Origin: Synechococcus sp. ARS1019 | GTDB lineage: Bacteria > Cyanobacteriota > Cyanobacteriia > PCC-6307 > Cyanobiaceae | Reading direction: 5' to 3' | Length of the DNA stretch: 39,926 bases | NCBI GenBank assembly: GCA_002690325.1 | Contig: NZED01000027.1 | Location: 59,202 to 99,127, forward strand | Shown here: positions 29,324 to 37,090 of the stretch, in pieces | How the letters are laid out: each line of letters starts with the position of its first letter | Numbering within the stretch: the stretch's first letter is position 1 | Notes under the pieces: model-generated | Databases searched by the model: none | What the model was told of the DNA's origin: nothing | The model's input: the letters and a program-made list of their open reading frames with translations, nothing else | Program-made: the position numbers and the translations under genes

Positions 29324-30838
29324 ATGAATACCGAAATCATTCTGACTCTCTGCATCTTTTTGCCGGCTGTGATCGGCTTTGCTGGATGTGTTTTCCCTAA
29401 GCCTTTCTTGTGGCTCTCTGGACTTGTATTGTCTGGTTATTCTTATTTTGCGTTGGTTGCCTTTCGTCAGGATCTTGAGTTTTCCTATCGACTCGTTGGT
29501 TTAGGTGGCATTGAATTTTCTTGGGACTCTTATAGTTTTCCAATGATCTTCGGAGCCTCTATCGCTCTGCTGATTACATTTTCTCTGTTTTCATCAAGAT
29601 TTTCTCATTATTTTTATCAAGTTTGCATGGTGCTGTTGACAGCACTGATGATTTCTTTCACGACAGTTGATCTTGTTAGCTTATTTATCGCCCTGGAATT
29701 AACGGGTTTCTCAGCTTTCTTGCTAATCGCCGATCGGAACGACAAAAGATCTCTGTTTAATGCATTCCAGTACTTGATCGGAGGTGGATTAGCGATGTTG
29801 ATCTACCTCGTTGGTGTTGTTCAGGCATTTACTTTCTCTGGAAGCTTTTTGCTCGCAGATCTCGTTAAAGCTCCTCCGACAGCAATTTGTTTGATCATTG
29901 CTGGACTTCTGACCAAGGCAGGAGTTTTTCTTTGTGGTCTTTGGGTTCCCAATATTTACTCCCATGCGAATTGCCAGTCGTCATCAATTTTGGCTGGTTG
30001 TGTGACCTGTGCTGGTATTGCTCCCATCGCACGGCTCAGCCAGGCCCTCACTCCAATTGCGGATTCAATGGTTGTGGTGGGTGTGCTCAGTGGTGTGATT
30101 GCGGCTGTTTATGCGGTTTTTGAACGGGAAAGTGGTCGTGCGCTTGGTTGGAGTTCTGTATCACAACTCGGCTTGGCCATGTTGTCTCCCTCCTATGCCT
30201 GCCTTTATGCCATGCAGCATGGCATTTGTAAGGCACTTCTTTTCTCAACTCTTCACGCTCACGATCGGGACGAATCTGATTCTGATCATCTCCAACATTC
30301 TGTATCCCAAGCCACAAAATCGTCTACGTCGGAACTGCTCAGAGTTGTGGTTTTTTGCCTCGCTTCACTGTCCATTATGGGCTTCCCATTATTGGCTGGA
30401 TTCATCACAAAAAACCTATTGAAATATGATCTACCCTATCAAGCAGACATTATATTCAATACATCTGCATTGTTAACATCAACTGTGTATGTTCGATTGA
30501 TTTATGACCGCTTGCTTGCCTACCGACACCACTTGAAGTTGTATCCATTTTCGCGCGAAAAGTTTTTCGAAAACCTTCCTCATTTTTCCAATATTGTATT
30601 GATCACTTCATCTGTTTTTCTTGTTTGCTTTTCCTTGCAGGATTTCGAACTTTACAAGTACGTCAATATTCAATCCGCCTTTGTTGCGGCAATGATCGGA
30701 GTGATTATGTTTGTATCAGTCAAAGGAATTCAGGCTGGAGAGTTTGTGAAGCCAGTCACTAAAACAATCGACTTGGTTGGAGCTCCATTCTTGGTTGCAG
30801 CATTGCTGCTTGCTAATCTTCTTTACTTCAAAATCTAA
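29324..30838 (+). CDS. mrpD: Mrp-type antiporter subunit D (NuoN/NuoM-like)
   Basis: Multi-TM protein with FIALELTGFSAFLLIA, GLLTKAGVFLCGLWVPNIYSHA. Confidence 0.88.
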   Translation: MNTEIILTLCIFLPAVIGFAGCVFPKPFLWLSGLVLSGYSYFALVAFRQDLEFSYRLVGLGGIEFSWDSYSFPMIFGASIALLITFSLFSSRFSHYFYQVCMVLLTALMISFTTVDLVSLFIALELTGFSAFLLIADRNDKRSLFNAFQYLIGGGLAMLIYLVGVVQAFTFSGSFLLADLVKAPPTAICLIIAGLLTKAGVFLCGLWVPNIYSHANCQSSSILAGCVTCAGIAPIARLSQALTPIADSMVVVGVLSGVIAAVYAVFERESGRALGWSSVSQLGLAMLSPSYACLYAMQHGICKALLFSTLHAHDRDESDSDHLQHSVSQATKSSTSELLRVVVFCLASLSIMGFPLLAGFITKNLLKYDLPYQADIIFNTSALLTSTVYVRLIYDRLLAYRHHLKLYPFSREKFFENLPHFSNIVLITSSVFLVCFSLQDFELYKYVNIQSAFVAAMIGVIMFVSVKGIQAGEFVKPVTKTIDLVGAPFLVAALLLANLLYFKI

Positions 30839-31284
30839 TGACTAATTTCATTCGTTATTTGCTAACAGTTGCTTTCAAGTTTCTTTGTTGGTTCTTGATT
30901 ACTGGTAGTTTGCAAACTTCTAATGTCATTCTAGGTTTGGTTGTTTGTGTGATTTTGCCACCTGGTTCTTACAAGAATCTTCAGGTTAAGGCGATTCTTC
31001 CTGAGTTGATCGCGTCCCTTTCTTTGCCATATGCAATGATTAAGGAAAGTGTTGAGTTAATGCTAATAAATAAGCCTAAAGATCATTTTGTTGTCGAAGA
31101 GGCCAGTGCGTATGCGAAGAAAGGGTCTATCTTCGCAGGATTTATTGACTTGTTTCGCATTACATTTACGCCAATGTCCCTTGTCACTAGAAGATTAAAC
31201 GCCTCACAATGGAGGGTCCATACGGTCAAAAATTTTCATCAGTCCGATGATCCTTCATCATCGTACCAGGAGGTGAGCTCATGA
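30838..31284 (+). CDS. mrpE: Mrp-type antiporter subunit E
   Basis: Two N-terminal TM helices, soluble C-terminal half; position between D and F; ATG overlaps the previous stop. Confidence 0.8.
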   Translation: MTNFIRYLLTVAFKFLCWFLITGSLQTSNVILGLVVCVILPPGSYKNLQVKAILPELIASLSLPYAMIKESVELMLINKPKDHFVVEEASAYAKKGSIFAGFIDLFRITFTPMSLVTRRLNASQWRVHTVKNFHQSDDPSSSYQEVSS

Positions 31285-31559
31285 ATATGTTTACTGATCT
31301 CCATCCCCAATTTTTTGAGCTCCTGGTTATTTATATAATGCTGTTGATTAGTTTTATCCCCTTACTTGCCGTTGCTCGATCAAATGATATGCCGACGAGG
31401 ATTGCGGTGGCGTCTAGTTTCAGTACCAAATTAGCCATGATGATCCTTGTGTTTGGCATCTATCGTGGTGATTGGATGATTGCATGTATTGGTGCATTCG
31501 TTTTAATTGTTGGTGATGCCGGCATGTTGATCCTCTCTTTAATGGAGATGGAAATATGA
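31281..31559 (+). CDS. mrpF: Mrp-type antiporter subunit F
   Basis: 92 aa, three TM helices, RIAVASSFSTKLAMMILVFGIYRGDWM; ATGA overlap with the preceding gene. Confidence 0.82.
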   Translation: MNMFTDLHPQFFELLVIYIMLLISFIPLLAVARSNDMPTRIAVASSFSTKLAMMILVFGIYRGDWMIACIGAFVLIVGDAGMLILSLMEMEI

Positions 31560-31843
31560 CATTATTACCTCTCATCGGAAAGGCCGTCGAAATTACATTG
31601 ATGGCTTTAGGTCTCCTCTTTTGGTTATGGGGAACATTGCCCATTTTGAATAAAAGGCATAGCCTTTTTTATAAATTGCACACGCTGACGGTTTCCGATA
31701 CCGTTGGATCGCTATGTATTTTAACTGCGCTGATTATCCATTCTCCGTCTAACTGGGTTTTGATTGTCACAGCCGGTATTTCATTGTCTCTCTGGAATAC
31801 CTTTTTTAGCTTTATTCTTGGAAGTGCAGCTGACCGATCATGA
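31556..31843 (+). CDS. mrpG: Mrp-type antiporter subunit G
   Basis: LFWLWGTLPILNKRHSLFYKLHTLTVSDTVGSLCILTALII, typical MnhG pattern. Confidence 0.85.
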   Translation: MTLLPLIGKAVEITLMALGLLFWLWGTLPILNKRHSLFYKLHTLTVSDTVGSLCILTALIIHSPSNWVLIVTAGISLSLWNTFFSFILGSAADRS

Positions 31844-32394
31844 ACACGACTGATTACTCGGCTACAGCTCTTCTGCTCCCTTTTGAGCTTCTTCTACCAC
31901 TTCTTGGCATTCTTCTTGTTCGCACTCAGTCACCAACTAATGGACTAATTTATCGTTCATTTCTTGGCAGTATTGCTGCTTTGATTTTTGCTGTCATCGG
32001 TGCCCCTGATGTGGCCTTGACAGAGGTGCTGATTGGTACCCTCCTTTCAATGTTGCTTTACATTGTTACCATTAGATCTTGTTACACAGTAGTGATGATG
32101 CAGGATTCTTCTGCACCGCCTGAGAAAGAAACTTGGAATCATTTGCTAGAAGTATTTAACGAGCTGCATTTAAAAGCGAGTTCAAAAGATTTCATCAACT
32201 CATCTGAAGTTCCTGTCGATAAAATTTTCGAACAATTCAAAGGTCGATCTGGCTCTCCTCATGCATTTATTAGCAACCAAACACTATACGTTGAGTCTAA
32301 TGTTCTAAAAGACGAGATCTTGGATACGCATTATTACCAAAGTAATCCCTTCCTCAATTCAGTTGTTGTTTTAACCCCAGGAGGTGACCAATGA
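31840..32394 (+). CDS. MbhD-like (MrpA C-terminal, DUF4040) subunit with extra soluble C-terminal region
   Basis: GLIYRSFLGSIAALIFAVIGAPDVALTEVLIGTLLSMLLYIVTIR, then ~95 non-hydrophobic residues. Confidence 0.8.
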   Translation: MNTTDYSATALLLPFELLLPLLGILLVRTQSPTNGLIYRSFLGSIAALIFAVIGAPDVALTEVLIGTLLSMLLYIVTIRSCYTVVMMQDSSAPPEKETWNHLLEVFNELHLKASSKDFINSSEVPVDKIFEQFKGRSGSPHAFISNQTLYVESNVLKDEILDTHYYQSNPFLNSVVVLTPGGDQ

Positions 32395-33092
32395 GATTTG
32401 CATTACCGCGTTTTTCAAGCAATCAATTAAAGTCTGCCCTTTATCTTATTGCTATCACGACAGTCATGGTGATGCTCCTTTTTGCAGCACCAGATAATCC
32501 TAATCGTGATACACAAGTAATTGTTGACTATCTTTCTGATTACACCAATATTCCAAATACAGTTACATCGGTGATTCTTGGTACTCGCTTATTTGACACA
32601 ATCGGTGAAGTTACGGTTTTTACAATTGCTGGCTTGGGAGTGAAAATTCTTCTTCATGACGAGGAGGAGGAGTCTGATTTCATTGCGGTTCAAGAACCCA
32701 CCCTTGTGATGTTGCTGGATCTCGCGGCAATCCTCAGTGCATTTCTTGCTATCGATCTTGCACTCAAGGGCCATCTAACGCCTGGCGGTGGCTTTGCTTC
32801 TGGAGTCTCTGGAGCCACGTCGATCACCTTATTAATGGTGACTGGACGTTTAAAGCAAGTTGAACAGTTCTATTTCAAATCTAATGCAGCCGCACTCGAG
32901 AAGTTTGCTGTTATTTGTTTTGTACTAACAGCGTTGGCGACATTTATTGGATTTGTTGATCCAAGTTCTCTATTTGCAACTATTCCTCCTCAAATTTATC
33001 TTCCTGCTCTTAATATCATCGCTGCGTTAAAGGTCACCATTGGCTCGTGGTCAATTCTTCGCTTCTTTATTTTGAGCCGAGGTTTAATGTGA
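32391..33092 (+). CDS. mrpB: MbhE-MnhB fusion (MrpA C-terminal/MrpB) antiporter subunit
   Basis: VILGTRLFDTIGEVTVFTIAGLGVKILL (MbhE-like), LDLAAILSAFLAIDLALKGHLTPGGGFASGV (MnhB-like). Confidence 0.85.
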   Translation: MRFALPRFSSNQLKSALYLIAITTVMVMLLFAAPDNPNRDTQVIVDYLSDYTNIPNTVTSVILGTRLFDTIGEVTVFTIAGLGVKILLHDEEEESDFIAVQEPTLVMLLDLAAILSAFLAIDLALKGHLTPGGGFASGVSGATSITLLMVTGRLKQVEQFYFKSNAAALEKFAVICFVLTALATFIGFVDPSSLFATIPPQIYLPALNIIAALKVTIGSWSILRFFILSRGLM

Positions 33093-33098
33093 TTATCT

Positions 33099-33878
33099 AT
33101 GGAATTTTACCAGTCTGATCGATGGTATTTTGGAGATTATAAAGGAGGTCTCCCCGGTAAAAATTACTCATTCCTTCTTTATGTTGTTATTCTGCTTCTG
33201 CTCGTTCAGATTTCCTTGACGACTGAGCAAACTTTAAAAACTGACTCGATCACGATATGGTTGGATTTTGCTCTTGAGTTGATCGAAATATTCTTTGTTA
33301 GTGATTATATTGGTAAGCTCACGAATAGTTGGTCGAAGTCTGATTACAGAGCAAAGGATGTTCTTCCAATCCTCCTTTCAGCTCCTGCAATTGCAGACTT
33401 TGTGGTCTTAATGATTTTGGTGACTAATAAATTTGACAATGATTCGATCATCGTGATTGGCTCTTATATTATCAAGATGTCCGTATCAATTTACTACTCG
33501 AGTTTTAGGAAAATTCTAGACCGACTTTATTTTATTGTTGCAGACTCGCCTGCTAGAACATTTTTCCCTGTTGTTCTTCTTTCGATTGTCACTTATATCT
33601 TTTCCGTTCTGATGTATATTGTTGAACGTTTTAATGATCCTGAGCATTTTGGGTCAATTGTTCGTTCGTTCTGGTTTTCTATTGTTACTGTTACCACAAT
33701 TGGATACGGGGATGTAACCCCTCCAACTGCGATTGGTAAATGTTTGGCAGTTGCCTTTGGTATTTTAGGGATTGTCTGTATTGCTTTGCTAACGGCGAAT
33801 ATCCTTGACGCGAACGGCCGTTTCGAGCGTCTTCAAGAGACCAAGGAAGGTCCAGAAGCTGACGCTTCTCGTGCGTAA
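33099..33878 (+). CDS. Six-TM K+ channel-like protein
   Basis: SFWFSIVTVTTIGYGDVTPPTAIGKCLAVAFGILGIVCIALLTANIL: TIGYGD filter with flanking helices. Confidence 0.9.
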   Translation: MEFYQSDRWYFGDYKGGLPGKNYSFLLYVVILLLLVQISLTTEQTLKTDSITIWLDFALELIEIFFVSDYIGKLTNSWSKSDYRAKDVLPILLSAPAIADFVVLMILVTNKFDNDSIIVIGSYIIKMSVSIYYSSFRKILDRLYFIVADSPARTFFPVVLLSIVTYIFSVLMYIVERFNDPEHFGSIVRSFWFSIVTVTTIGYGDVTPPTAIGKCLAVAFGILGIVCIALLTANILDANGRFERLQETKEGPEADASRA

Positions 33879-34035: not shown

Positions 34036-34884
34036 ATGATTTCACCGATGGCCAAGATGGTTAAATTTCTTTTGTGTTTTGCATTAATATTCAGCTCTGT
34101 TCTCCCTGTGTCGGCTGCAGAGAATTTATTTATTGATGGCATCCAGAAGCGTGGGGTTTTGAAGGTGGGTATTCCTTCTTACAACACACCACCTGCTTAT
34201 TACATCGATAAAGACTCAGAGCAATTGAAGGGTTATGACATTGATATTGCCCGTGACTTGGCTAACGAGTTAGGCGTTGATGTTCAGTTTGATCGAACTT
34301 CCGAAGATTTAAACACCCTTGTTCGTCGCGTTGGTGCTGGCGATTTTGATATGGCAATTGGAAAGCTTGGGCTTAATTATAAGCGAATGTTTAATGCCTA
34401 CCCAGTTCATTACTTGAATTTCAGACATGCCTTATTGGCCAACCGGACGTTCGTCTCATCTTTATCATCTGAGCCTGGTAATTCGGAATTTGCCGAAGCT
34501 CTGAAGAACTCCAATATTAAAATTGCTTCTTTGGCGAAATCAATTTGGGAAGTAGAAACGGCTACGAATTTCCCGAACGCTACTTATGTTGGCTATCCAG
34601 ACTGGGCAGCTTGTCAACAGGCTCTTTTTGATGGTGATGTTGATGCGATTTACCGAGATATGACTGAAATCAAGCCTTTGGTTTATGCCAAGCCAGAGTT
34701 GATTATTGATTACGTGCCGATTTTATTTGACGACATAGTTGACAAGAAGTCAATCTATTTATCAAAAGACGGATACGTCAACTTCACCAAATTTATCAAA
34801 TTCTATATCTCCAAAGAATGGGGTCAAGTTAAGTCTGACTCAGACATTCTTGAAGAATACAAAGACGTTTACTCAGCTTCTTGA
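34036..34884 (+). CDS. Periplasmic solute-binding protein, family 3 (SBP_bac_3-like)
   Basis: Signal peptide MVKFLLCFALIFSSVLPVSAAE; IQKRGVLKVGIPSYNTPPAYYIDKDSEQLKGYDIDIARDLANELGVDVQFDR. Confidence 0.9.
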   Translation: MISPMAKMVKFLLCFALIFSSVLPVSAAENLFIDGIQKRGVLKVGIPSYNTPPAYYIDKDSEQLKGYDIDIARDLANELGVDVQFDRTSEDLNTLVRRVGAGDFDMAIGKLGLNYKRMFNAYPVHYLNFRHALLANRTFVSSLSSEPGNSEFAEALKNSNIKIASLAKSIWEVETATNFPNATYVGYPDWAACQQALFDGDVDAIYRDMTEIKPLVYAKPELIIDYVPILFDDIVDKKSIYLSKDGYVNFTKFIKFYISKEWGQVKSDSDILEEYKDVYSAS

Positions 34885-36212
34885 TCTCTGTCATGACATT
34901 CTCTTCTTTTGCTGAACTTCTTCAACGTGCTCGTTCACCAAGAAGTTTCTTCCTGTTTATTCTTCCACTCTCGATTGTTCTTGGAACAGTCCTCCCTGAT
35001 ACAGCCGCACCAGTCCTCAATAGCGCCGGACTTGCCTTAGTCCAGCTGATTGCTTTTCCGGCGATCCCGCTGGTTCTCTCTGCTGTGATGATTTCTATCT
35101 CCAATATCTTTGCAAGTCGGGGAGGCGGTTCTTCTGATCAATTTCGTTTCGCTCGACGTTTCTCAGTTTCTCTTCTTTTAGTCGTTGTTTTTGCGGCTTT
35201 CCTTGCCACCTTGCTTTCGATCTACCAAGGCCCAGGGATCTTGTCCCCTGATGGCAAGTTATCGATTGGTCGTTTCATGCTCGATAGTACCGATATCCGC
35301 ATTTCGTCTGCTGCGGTTGCAGCGACTGAACAGGCCAATAGCCAGTTTTGGCTCCAAACATTGTTGCCCAATAATCTGCTCGGCGATGCTTCAGCTAGTC
35401 GAACTCTACGAGTGATTACTGGCTCGATTCTGGCCGGAGTCGCGATGTCGAGGTTGCAGCCGTCGATCACCAAACCTTTGATTGGTGTGTTGCGGAGCAT
35501 CAATAGCACCTCGGTTCAGCTTCTCAATATTGTTCTGAATCTTGCCCCACTTGTTCTAATCTTTTTAATCGCTGGTGCTGTTTCAACCATTAATGCAGAA
35601 ATTGTTGTTGCGCTATTGAATTTTACGATCTGCGTGTTTCTAGCAGCAGTCGCTTCTCTCGGTATCTCACGTCTTGTTTTTAGGCGATTTACCAGTACTA
35701 AAGAACGTTCAACACTTTCAGAGAATCCAATCGATTCGGTCTTTCTTCTCGCATTCTCGACTGGTTCAAGCATGTCCTCTTATTCGTTGATGTTTGAGAC
35801 GATGAAGGGAATGGGACGTGATGAGTCAGAGGTTGAAGCATCGGCATCCTTGAGTTTACTGATTTCTCAAATTGGCAATATTACTTATAGTGTTATTGCT
35901 ATTATGTTCGCTCTCAATCTTTATAACGTTCCGCTTTCGCCGACAACGCTGCTTCAAGTGATGATCTTGGGCATCGTGACCGGCATCTCGGCTGCTGGTC
36001 TTGAGGGTGTGTCTGTCGTACCAACCATTGCAGCAGCTCTGTTGTTTTTTCAGGTGCCGTCGCCTCCAGTCTTGGTGCTTTTGATTGCGATTGACCCTTT
36101 GCTGACCCTACCTCGTGCAGCGACAACGAGCGCTCTGGCCATGGCCATTACGACGATTGCTTCTCAGCGTGAGCAGTCGTCTCAATCGTTCGACGACGCT
36201 GCTTCATCCTGA
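34881..36212 (+). CDS. Divergent SDF/DAACS-family (dicarboxylate/amino-acid:cation) symporter-like protein
   Basis: Multi-TM; LLAFSTGSSMSSYSLMFETMKGMG (HP1-like), ISQIGNITYSVIA, LLIAIDPLLTLPRAATTSALAMAITTIAS (TM8-like). TTG 34881 or ATG 34893 start. Confidence 0.82.
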   Translation: MISVMTFSSFAELLQRARSPRSFFLFILPLSIVLGTVLPDTAAPVLNSAGLALVQLIAFPAIPLVLSAVMISISNIFASRGGGSSDQFRFARRFSVSLLLVVVFAAFLATLLSIYQGPGILSPDGKLSIGRFMLDSTDIRISSAAVAATEQANSQFWLQTLLPNNLLGDASASRTLRVITGSILAGVAMSRLQPSITKPLIGVLRSINSTSVQLLNIVLNLAPLVLIFLIAGAVSTINAEIVVALLNFTICVFLAAVASLGISRLVFRRFTSTKERSTLSENPIDSVFLLAFSTGSSMSSYSLMFETMKGMGRDESEVEASASLSLLISQIGNITYSVIAIMFALNLYNVPLSPTTLLQVMILGIVTGISAAGLEGVSVVPTIAAALLFFQVPSPPVLVLLIAIDPLLTLPRAATTSALAMAITTIASQREQSSQSFDDAASS

Positions 36213-37090
36213 GCCTGTGTTGAGTCCTGCGGTTTTAATCTTGATTTTGCACTGATTAAACTCGCGGTCAGGATCAGGATTCCCCCTAGGGCTGTTGTTC
36301 CGTTGATTTGTTCGTTAAACCAAAGCCATCCCCACAATGCAGCAAATAGAACTTGGACATAATTAATCGTTGTTGCTTGTCCTGCTGGTAAGCGTCTTAA
36401 CCCTTCCGTCACCCAAATTTGTCCAAGTTGCGTGAGGATTCCAACCCCCAATAACCAAAACAGTTCCGTTGCTGTTGGCATCACTCCGTGACGAACAACA
36501 CCTGGCACTGTTGCCGGTATGGAGATCAATGGGAAATAAAAAATAATGACGAGGGGATGCTCGGTCACGCTCAGTTTTCGTACACAGACGTAAGCCATGG
36601 CTGTGCAAAATGCTCCAGCGATTGCGATTAATGCTGGCAGCGTTGGTAATCCCTCTCCAGCCTGGCCAACCCAGCCTGGTTGAACCACCATTGCGACACC
36701 AATCCAACCGATTGGTAACGCAAGAAGAATCATCTTTCCCAGTTGTTCTTTTAGCAGCAACGCTGCGGCTCCAGCCGTGAACGTCGGATAGGTGTATTGG
36801 AGAACAGTGGCTGATCCCAGTGGTAGTGCTGCGATGGCATAAAAGAAACACAGCAGAGCTACCGTCCCTGCCGTTCCGCGCACCAGCAACCCGACCTTGT
36901 CTTGACCCCATGGCGACAGGCCAAGACGTCTGATGGCGATTGACGTTATTAAGAGGCTGATGATGGCCCTGGCAAAAACGATTTCCTCGACCGGGAGTCG
37001 TCCCCCCAACTGTTTGACGCAGACCGTCATCAGACTGAAGGCCAGTCCGCTCAGGACAAGTGCCCTGGTCCCCTTCTGTGCATTCCCCAT
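36182..37090 (-). CDS. EamA/DMT-family transporter
   Basis: Ten TM helices, two EamA-like repeats; LGSATVLQYTYPTFTAGAAALLLKEQL, RLPAGQATTINYVQVLFAALWGWLWFNEQ. Confidence 0.9.
   Translation of the reverse strand: MGNAQKGTRALVLSGLAFSLMTVCVKQLGGRLPVEEIVFARAIISLLITSIAIRRLGLSPWGQDKVGLLVRGTAGTVALLCFFYAIAALPLGSATVLQYTYPTFTAGAAALLLKEQLGKMILLALPIGWIGVAMVVQPGWVGQAGEGLPTLPALIAIAGAFCTAMAYVCVRKLSVTEHPLVIIFYFPLISIPATVPGVVRHGVMPTATELFWLLGVGILTQLGQIWVTEGLRRLPAGQATTINYVQVLFAALWGWLWFNEQINGTTALGGILILTASLISAKSRLKPQDSTQAQDEAASSND

Follow-up and report, generated by a model that had tools for sequence, protein, structure and literature searches.

Carriers of the DAACS/SDF family normally operate without a substrate-binding protein (SBP). 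Among secondary transporters, only the TRAP and TT systems were known to work with a soluble SBP until TAXI-GltS was proposed in 2025 from gene coupling, fusions and a ligand-binding assay, and elevator mechanics have been suggested as what lets a carrier accept such a partner, an idea that further classes would test (PMC12344293). Could an SDF carrier have a binding protein of its own? Here, we describe a gene pair of Synechococcus sp. ARS1019 whose SBP and SDF carrier, judging from sequence, likely act together in uptake as an SBP-dependent secondary transporter. The initial annotation of this DNA had raised the possibility of SBP-assisted secondary transport, and the comparisons below support it.

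The window—by which we mean the whole stretch of DNA that was analyzed, 39,926 nucleotides—comes from a 2.26-Mb, Cyanobiaceae-type genome (89% complete) in which the paired SDF gene is the only SDF gene found. The SBP gene (34036..34884, plus strand) encodes a protein with a predicted Sec-type leader that matches PF00497 (SBP_bac_3) at E 1.6e-11, with 44.5 bits against a cut-off of 26.4. The gene of the divergent SDF/DAACS carrier follows on the plus strand, at 34881..36212 from a TTG start or 34893..36212 from an alternative ATG, and residues 26-424 of its product match PF00375 at E 3.2e-34 (119.1 bits; cut-off 27.9). The SBP stop codon, TGA at 34882-34884, and the TTG that starts at 34881 make a 4-nt TTGA overlap (34881..34884, plus strand) with the geometry of translational coupling; in a related locus, L014, an ATGA overlap occupies the same position. 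Thus, the family-3 SBP, the SDF-fold carrier, the overlap and the ATG 8 nt after the SBP stop are all as the initial annotation had them. So is the lack of an ABC permease or ATPase nearby: a Pfam examination of the window ORFs beside the pair found no amino-acid ABC permease or ATPase gene, and the locus is, therefore, not organized as an amino-acid ABC importer. The SDF gene is followed by an EamA gene on the minus strand (36182-37090), and dnaG also lies downstream. Upstream are the gene of a K+ channel-like protein (Ion_trans_2, with a TIGYGD filter; 33099..33878, plus strand) and a Mrp-type Na+/H+ antiporter operon (29324..33092, plus strand), which we regard as context and not as a demonstrated part of the system.

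How does such a pair compare with the described systems? In TAXI-GltS (Bordetella pertussis BP0403/BP0402; PMC12344293), an SBP gene is likewise translationally coupled to the gene of a secondary symporter, the carrier is of the elevator type, TRAP and ABC membrane genes are absent and fusions occur in other bacteria. The families, however, differ: a TAXI SBP with extra domains and GltS (ESS, 2.A.27) in that case, SBP_bac_3 and SDF/DAACS in ours. The order within fusions differs as well, being SBP then carrier in TAXI-GltS and carrier then SBP in the SDF-SBP fusions described below; what is common to both is the logic of the architecture. TRAP and TTT systems also resemble the proposed one in joining a periplasmic SBP to an ATP-independent elevator carrier, but their SBPs belong to other families and their membrane proteins have other folds. 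None of the ORFs adjoining the pair encodes a TRAP or TTT membrane protein, and the domains of the pair are PF00497 and PF00375 rather than a DctP/TAXI SBP and DctQM-type membrane proteins. The pair is, in other words, an SDF carrier with an SBP_bac_3 protein that falls outside TRAP, TTT and TAXI-GltS, and it is best read, by analogy, as a little-known route that would follow the logic of TRAP and TAXI-GltS with different parts. A link to the glutamate system of Rhodobacter sphaeroides, which is Na+-dependent and uses a binding protein, was considered and dropped, that system having been assigned to TAXI-TRAP in 2025 (PMC12632250). We found no description of an SBP_bac_3-SDF unit in the open-access literature, which is not proof that none exists.

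The two genes keep company well beyond this genome. When 386 Cyanobacteriota genomes were searched with profile A1 for the SDF and profile A2 for the SBP (E<1e-40), SDFs appeared in 10 genomes (next best match, 1.8e-30) and SBPs in exactly the same 10 (next best, 1.2e-17); the hypergeometric value of 6e-20 for this coincidence ignores shared ancestry and is to be read only as "exact match." The ten genomes represent four families. The genes are adjacent in eight of them, and G361, G431 and G352 all have them side by side; in the other two genomes, both genes have been retained although unlinked, ~14 kb apart in G419 and ~99 kb apart in G285. Within the family, 7 of 201 genomes have SDF orthologues, and six of those seven have close SBP orthologues, the seventh being a fragment at a contig end. 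Wherever both genes of a Cyanobiaceae locus can be read, the SBP gene lies directly 5' of the SDF gene on the same strand, an order that is kept down to 31% SDF identity (G047) and 34% SBP identity. (Locus L024, from a MAG that is 53% complete, G033, has in-frame stops in the 5' part of its SBP gene, and the ORF from 4463 was used.) Paired SBPs, unlinked ones included, form one clade (98/94), and the identities of SBPs and SDFs rise and fall together (r=0.95 over 25 pairs; 0/5000 permutations). Loci L079 and L101, whose residues came out in wrong frames, were excluded from the SDF tree. Co-occurrence, tree match and permutation test all partly reflect shared ancestry. One further contig, L015, is binned as a Rubripirellula MAG and carries Synechococcus-like ComA-SBP-SDF genes; it is likely a binning contamination.

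Proteobacterial plasmids hold the same pair. A tblastn search of 72,556 plasmids with the ARS1019 SDF gave no match, and a cyanobacterial relative, L083, replaced it as the query. The top four SDF records proved to be the top four SBP records (two from Paraburkholderia and one each from Cupriavidus and Gemmobacter), with the two genes adjacent in all four. The matches that came next were canonical GltP/DctA-type carriers and ABC SBPs, and a near plasmid ABC SBP has permease and ATPase genes with it, unlike the SBP of ARS1019. Adjacency is, thus, conserved not just among close strains, which was a doubt left by the initial annotation, but across several families of cyanobacteria as well as Alpha- and Betaproteobacteria. 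The pair is followed by a second SDF in the three proteobacterial loci; in cassettes L113 (5990-7330) and L115 (5969-7423), this second, very divergent SDF lies downstream of a racemase gene.

In other Cyanobiaceae, the two domains are found within single proteins of ~720-800 aa, an SDF domain at the N terminus and SBP_bac_3 at the C terminus. These fusions occur in 21 of 201 family genomes and 11 of 59 genera, counts in which a distant subset was included without a Pfam check. A second, distant set (L102, L103, L105, L106 and L108; ~750 aa, 28-32% identity to the first fusions) consists of probable SDF-SBP fusions. In six of the fusions (L034, L036, L038, L040, L041 and L043), the SDF part is without several HP2-tip residues, and these proteins could be transporters or receptors. 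The fused SBPs group beside the paired SBPs (82/73, moderate support). The fused SDF domains branch far from the paired ones; their HP2 region is shortened and they do not have the Arg of TM7 discussed below, so that the fusions support the association of the domains more than they do an identical mechanism; the fused carriers may work differently from the paired ones. Taken with co-occurrence, plasmid adjacency and genes that are unlinked but kept, the fusions indicate that SBP and carrier are inherited as a unit. One might still imagine that the SBP serves an orphan ABC importer elsewhere and sits beside the carrier by accident; SBP_bac_3 proteins usually serve ABC importers, after all, and the ARS1019 genome has six SBP_bac_3 matches. 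But a protein that tracks the SDF gene through the same set of cyanobacterial genomes, stays beside it across phyla and has relatives fused to SDFs already largely refutes this idea, which we find scarcely credible.

The proteins themselves look like what their families would suggest. Profile matches of the SBP are amino-acid SBPs and cyclohexadienyl dehydratases, and its AF2 model (pLDDT 79) has the periplasmic-binding fold, resembling family-3 SBPs (Foldseek E 8e-17), with amino-acid SBPs and SAR11_1068 with sulfobetaine among the fold matches. Two of its residues, Arg117 (34384..34386, plus strand) and Asp208 (34657..34659, plus strand, in a conserved RDxxE context), are invariant in profile A2, have equivalents in all paired SBPs and align with the Arg and Asp of AncCDT; we take them to be the alpha-carboxylate and alpha-amino ligand positions of family-3 amino-acid SBPs. 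The paired SBP of G431 (L084, 8713-9948) carries an N-terminal peptidoglycan-binding domain, PF01471, possibly a tether. The carrier's profile matches are an ancestral uncoupled aspartate transporter, GltPh, GltTk and EAAT3, and its AF2 model, at a moderate pLDDT of 74.6, matches GltPh and ASCT2; the top Foldseek matches are all SLC1/GltPh (E 3e-11), as expected of the GltPh fold. The ancestral transporter (9bgz, 9bgy and 9bh0), titled uncoupled, is the best PDB sequence match; unlike the paired SDF, it keeps the NMDGT motif, and the PDB titles name no SBP partner.

It is in the cation ligands that the carrier departs from its family. Residues were aligned by profile to solved SDF structures and by MAFFT with GltPh, and both alignments place S-Q-I-G-N (residues 325-329, numbered from the ATG at 34893; 35865..35879, plus strand) at N310-M311-D312-G313-T314 of GltPh. 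This corrects the initial annotation, which had taken NITYS, four residues farther on, for NMDGT, an alignment that we ruled out. Its reading of TM8 (36093..36140, plus strand; Arg397-equivalent codon, 36114-36116) was accurate: D390 and R397 are kept, and positions 394, 398, 401 and 405 are Thr, Ala, Thr and Ala in place of Asp, Thr, Asn and Asp. The Na+ ligands N310, D312, N401 and D405 are, thus, S, I, T and A, and several Na+ and amino-group ligands are indeed missing, positions 310, 312, 394, 401 and 405 all being substituted, and none reappears elsewhere in the alignment. N310, D312 and N401 are missing from all paired SDFs, as is D405, whose place is taken by Asn in the proteobacterial ones. 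GltPh, GltP and DctA have PF00375, the GltPh fold, D390 and R397 in common with the paired SDFs but retain N310, D312 and N401, even where, as in E. coli DctA and enterobacterial GltP, they are H+-coupled. At the position of GltPh Met311, every paired relative has Arg; ARS1019 alone has Gln (codon CAA at 35868-35870), which from the alignment is a lineage-specific change.

Given that two Na+ sites are gone and that almost every relative has a central Arg, the carrier is probably driven by H+ or one Na+, or else works by exchange. One can go further and suppose that an SDF elevator gave up its Na+ sites, that the TM7 Arg replaces the cation and that the SBP, in this clade along with a partner K+ channel, sets the affinity and direction of uptake in place of Na+ symport. 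The pair would then represent one more class of SBP-dependent secondary transporter, a proposal that we put forward tentatively and think rather doubtful. The Gln of ARS1019, found where its paired relatives have Arg, is a counterpoint to the broader reading of joint uptake. The missing ligands, together with the loss of part of HP2 in fused relatives, could also be taken to mean that the SDF has ceased to transport and serves the SBP as a membrane anchor or receptor. D390 and R397 are, however, invariant in the paired SDFs, the hairpin glycines at 354 and 357 have been retained and the model has the GltPh fold, and we consider such a retired carrier quite improbable.

What of the neighbors? 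Of the 201 family genomes, exactly five have an orthologue of the K+ channel, and each of the five also has the pair; the channel may offset the charge that the carrier moves. A marker of the Mrp operon is found, among 11 genus genomes, in the four members that bear the pair, with a weaker match in one other (G061) and none in the remaining six. G047 has, upstream of the pair, the gene of a Na+/H+ exchanger (PF00999; L025, 3601-4968) in the place taken in the window by the Mrp operon and the channel. In GluR0, an SBP domain gates a channel. Might the SBP, then, act on the adjacent K+ channel, the carrier merely clearing the ligand? The channel does stand beside the pair in all five channel-bearing family genomes, and an Ion_trans protein ends the Gemmobacter cassette. 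But no channel gene adjoins the pairs of G047, G361 and G431, the tightest junction is that of SBP and SDF and the fusions join the SBP to the SDF, all of which makes a channel receptor very unlikely.

A sensory role has a precedent. In Bacillus subtilis, according to a review, DctB is a membrane co-receptor that joins DctA and DctS in a tripartite sensory unit, so that an extracytoplasmic accessory receptor with a DAACS carrier is already known in a setting other than transport (PMC6978683). By that example, the SBP would report substrate or transport state together with a carrier that transports alone. DctB, however, serves sensing with a kinase, and no sensor kinase adjoins the ARS1019 pair. 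The genes flanking the pair include neither a kinase nor a response regulator in the window, in G162, G186, G047 and G361 or in the proteobacterial loci that were inspected; only in G431 are a sensor kinase and a cyclase found nearby. We hold a co-receptor to be improbable, and joint uptake by SBP and SDF is the reading that we carry forward.

The substrate of the pair is probably acidic, as far as residues and neighboring genes can tell. In SLC1 structures, D394 binds the amino group and R397 the side-chain acid of the substrate. The SDFs of G431, Gemmobacter and Paraburkholderia have D and T at 394 and 398, as in GltPh and GltP. The marine Synechococcus paired SDFs read T/R/A at 394/397/398 and E. 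coli DctA reads S/R/A, in line with the DctA-like pattern that the initial annotation had noticed. An Asp/Glu racemase-family gene adjoins the pair in G361, G431, G352, Gemmobacter, Cupriavidus and Paraburkholderia (PF01177 confirmed in G361, G431, Gemmobacter and Paraburkholderia). For these racemase-linked relatives, several of which keep D394/R397/T398, acidic amino acids would be the most likely class. G112, G162, G186 and L019 carry a ComA gene (PF02679) immediately before the SBP gene, as three of the four sampled same-genus genomes with the pair do; it is absent from that position in the ARS1019 window and L014. Its coordinates are 6633-7412 in L021, 4273-5007 in L019 and 6277-7014 in L023, where a glyoxalase-family ORF lies between ComA and the SBP gene. 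Apart from the pair-linked genes, the only ComA found among the 201 family genomes is in G155 (L051, 7310-8068), away from the pair and beside NRPS/adenylation-domain genes. The product of ComA is phosphosulfolactate. With a DctA-like pocket and ComA upstream in most of those genomes, a dicarboxylate or its sulfonate analogue appears the more likely substrate of the marine Synechococcus carriers. The hints disagree, as the SBP keeps the Arg and Asp of amino-acid binders and the carrier is without the amino-group Asp394.

In the mechanism that we propose, the family-3 SBP would catch a small acidic solute in the periplasm, dock on the dedicated SDF-fold elevator carrier and pass the solute to it, and the carrier would bring it through the membrane at no cost in ATP; in this scheme, the physical docking, the transport itself, the coupling ion and the substrate are what we infer. 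Elevators have their archetype in the SDF carriers, for which many structures are available and which include human relatives, the EAATs and ASCTs. An SBP-dependent SDF, if that is what this is, would, therefore, make the idea that elevators can accept SBPs testable on the best-understood elevator of all, and it would connect uptake in picocyanobacteria with acidic amino acids or sulfonates. The pair points to a way in which distant bacteria may import scarce nutrients without spending ATP.
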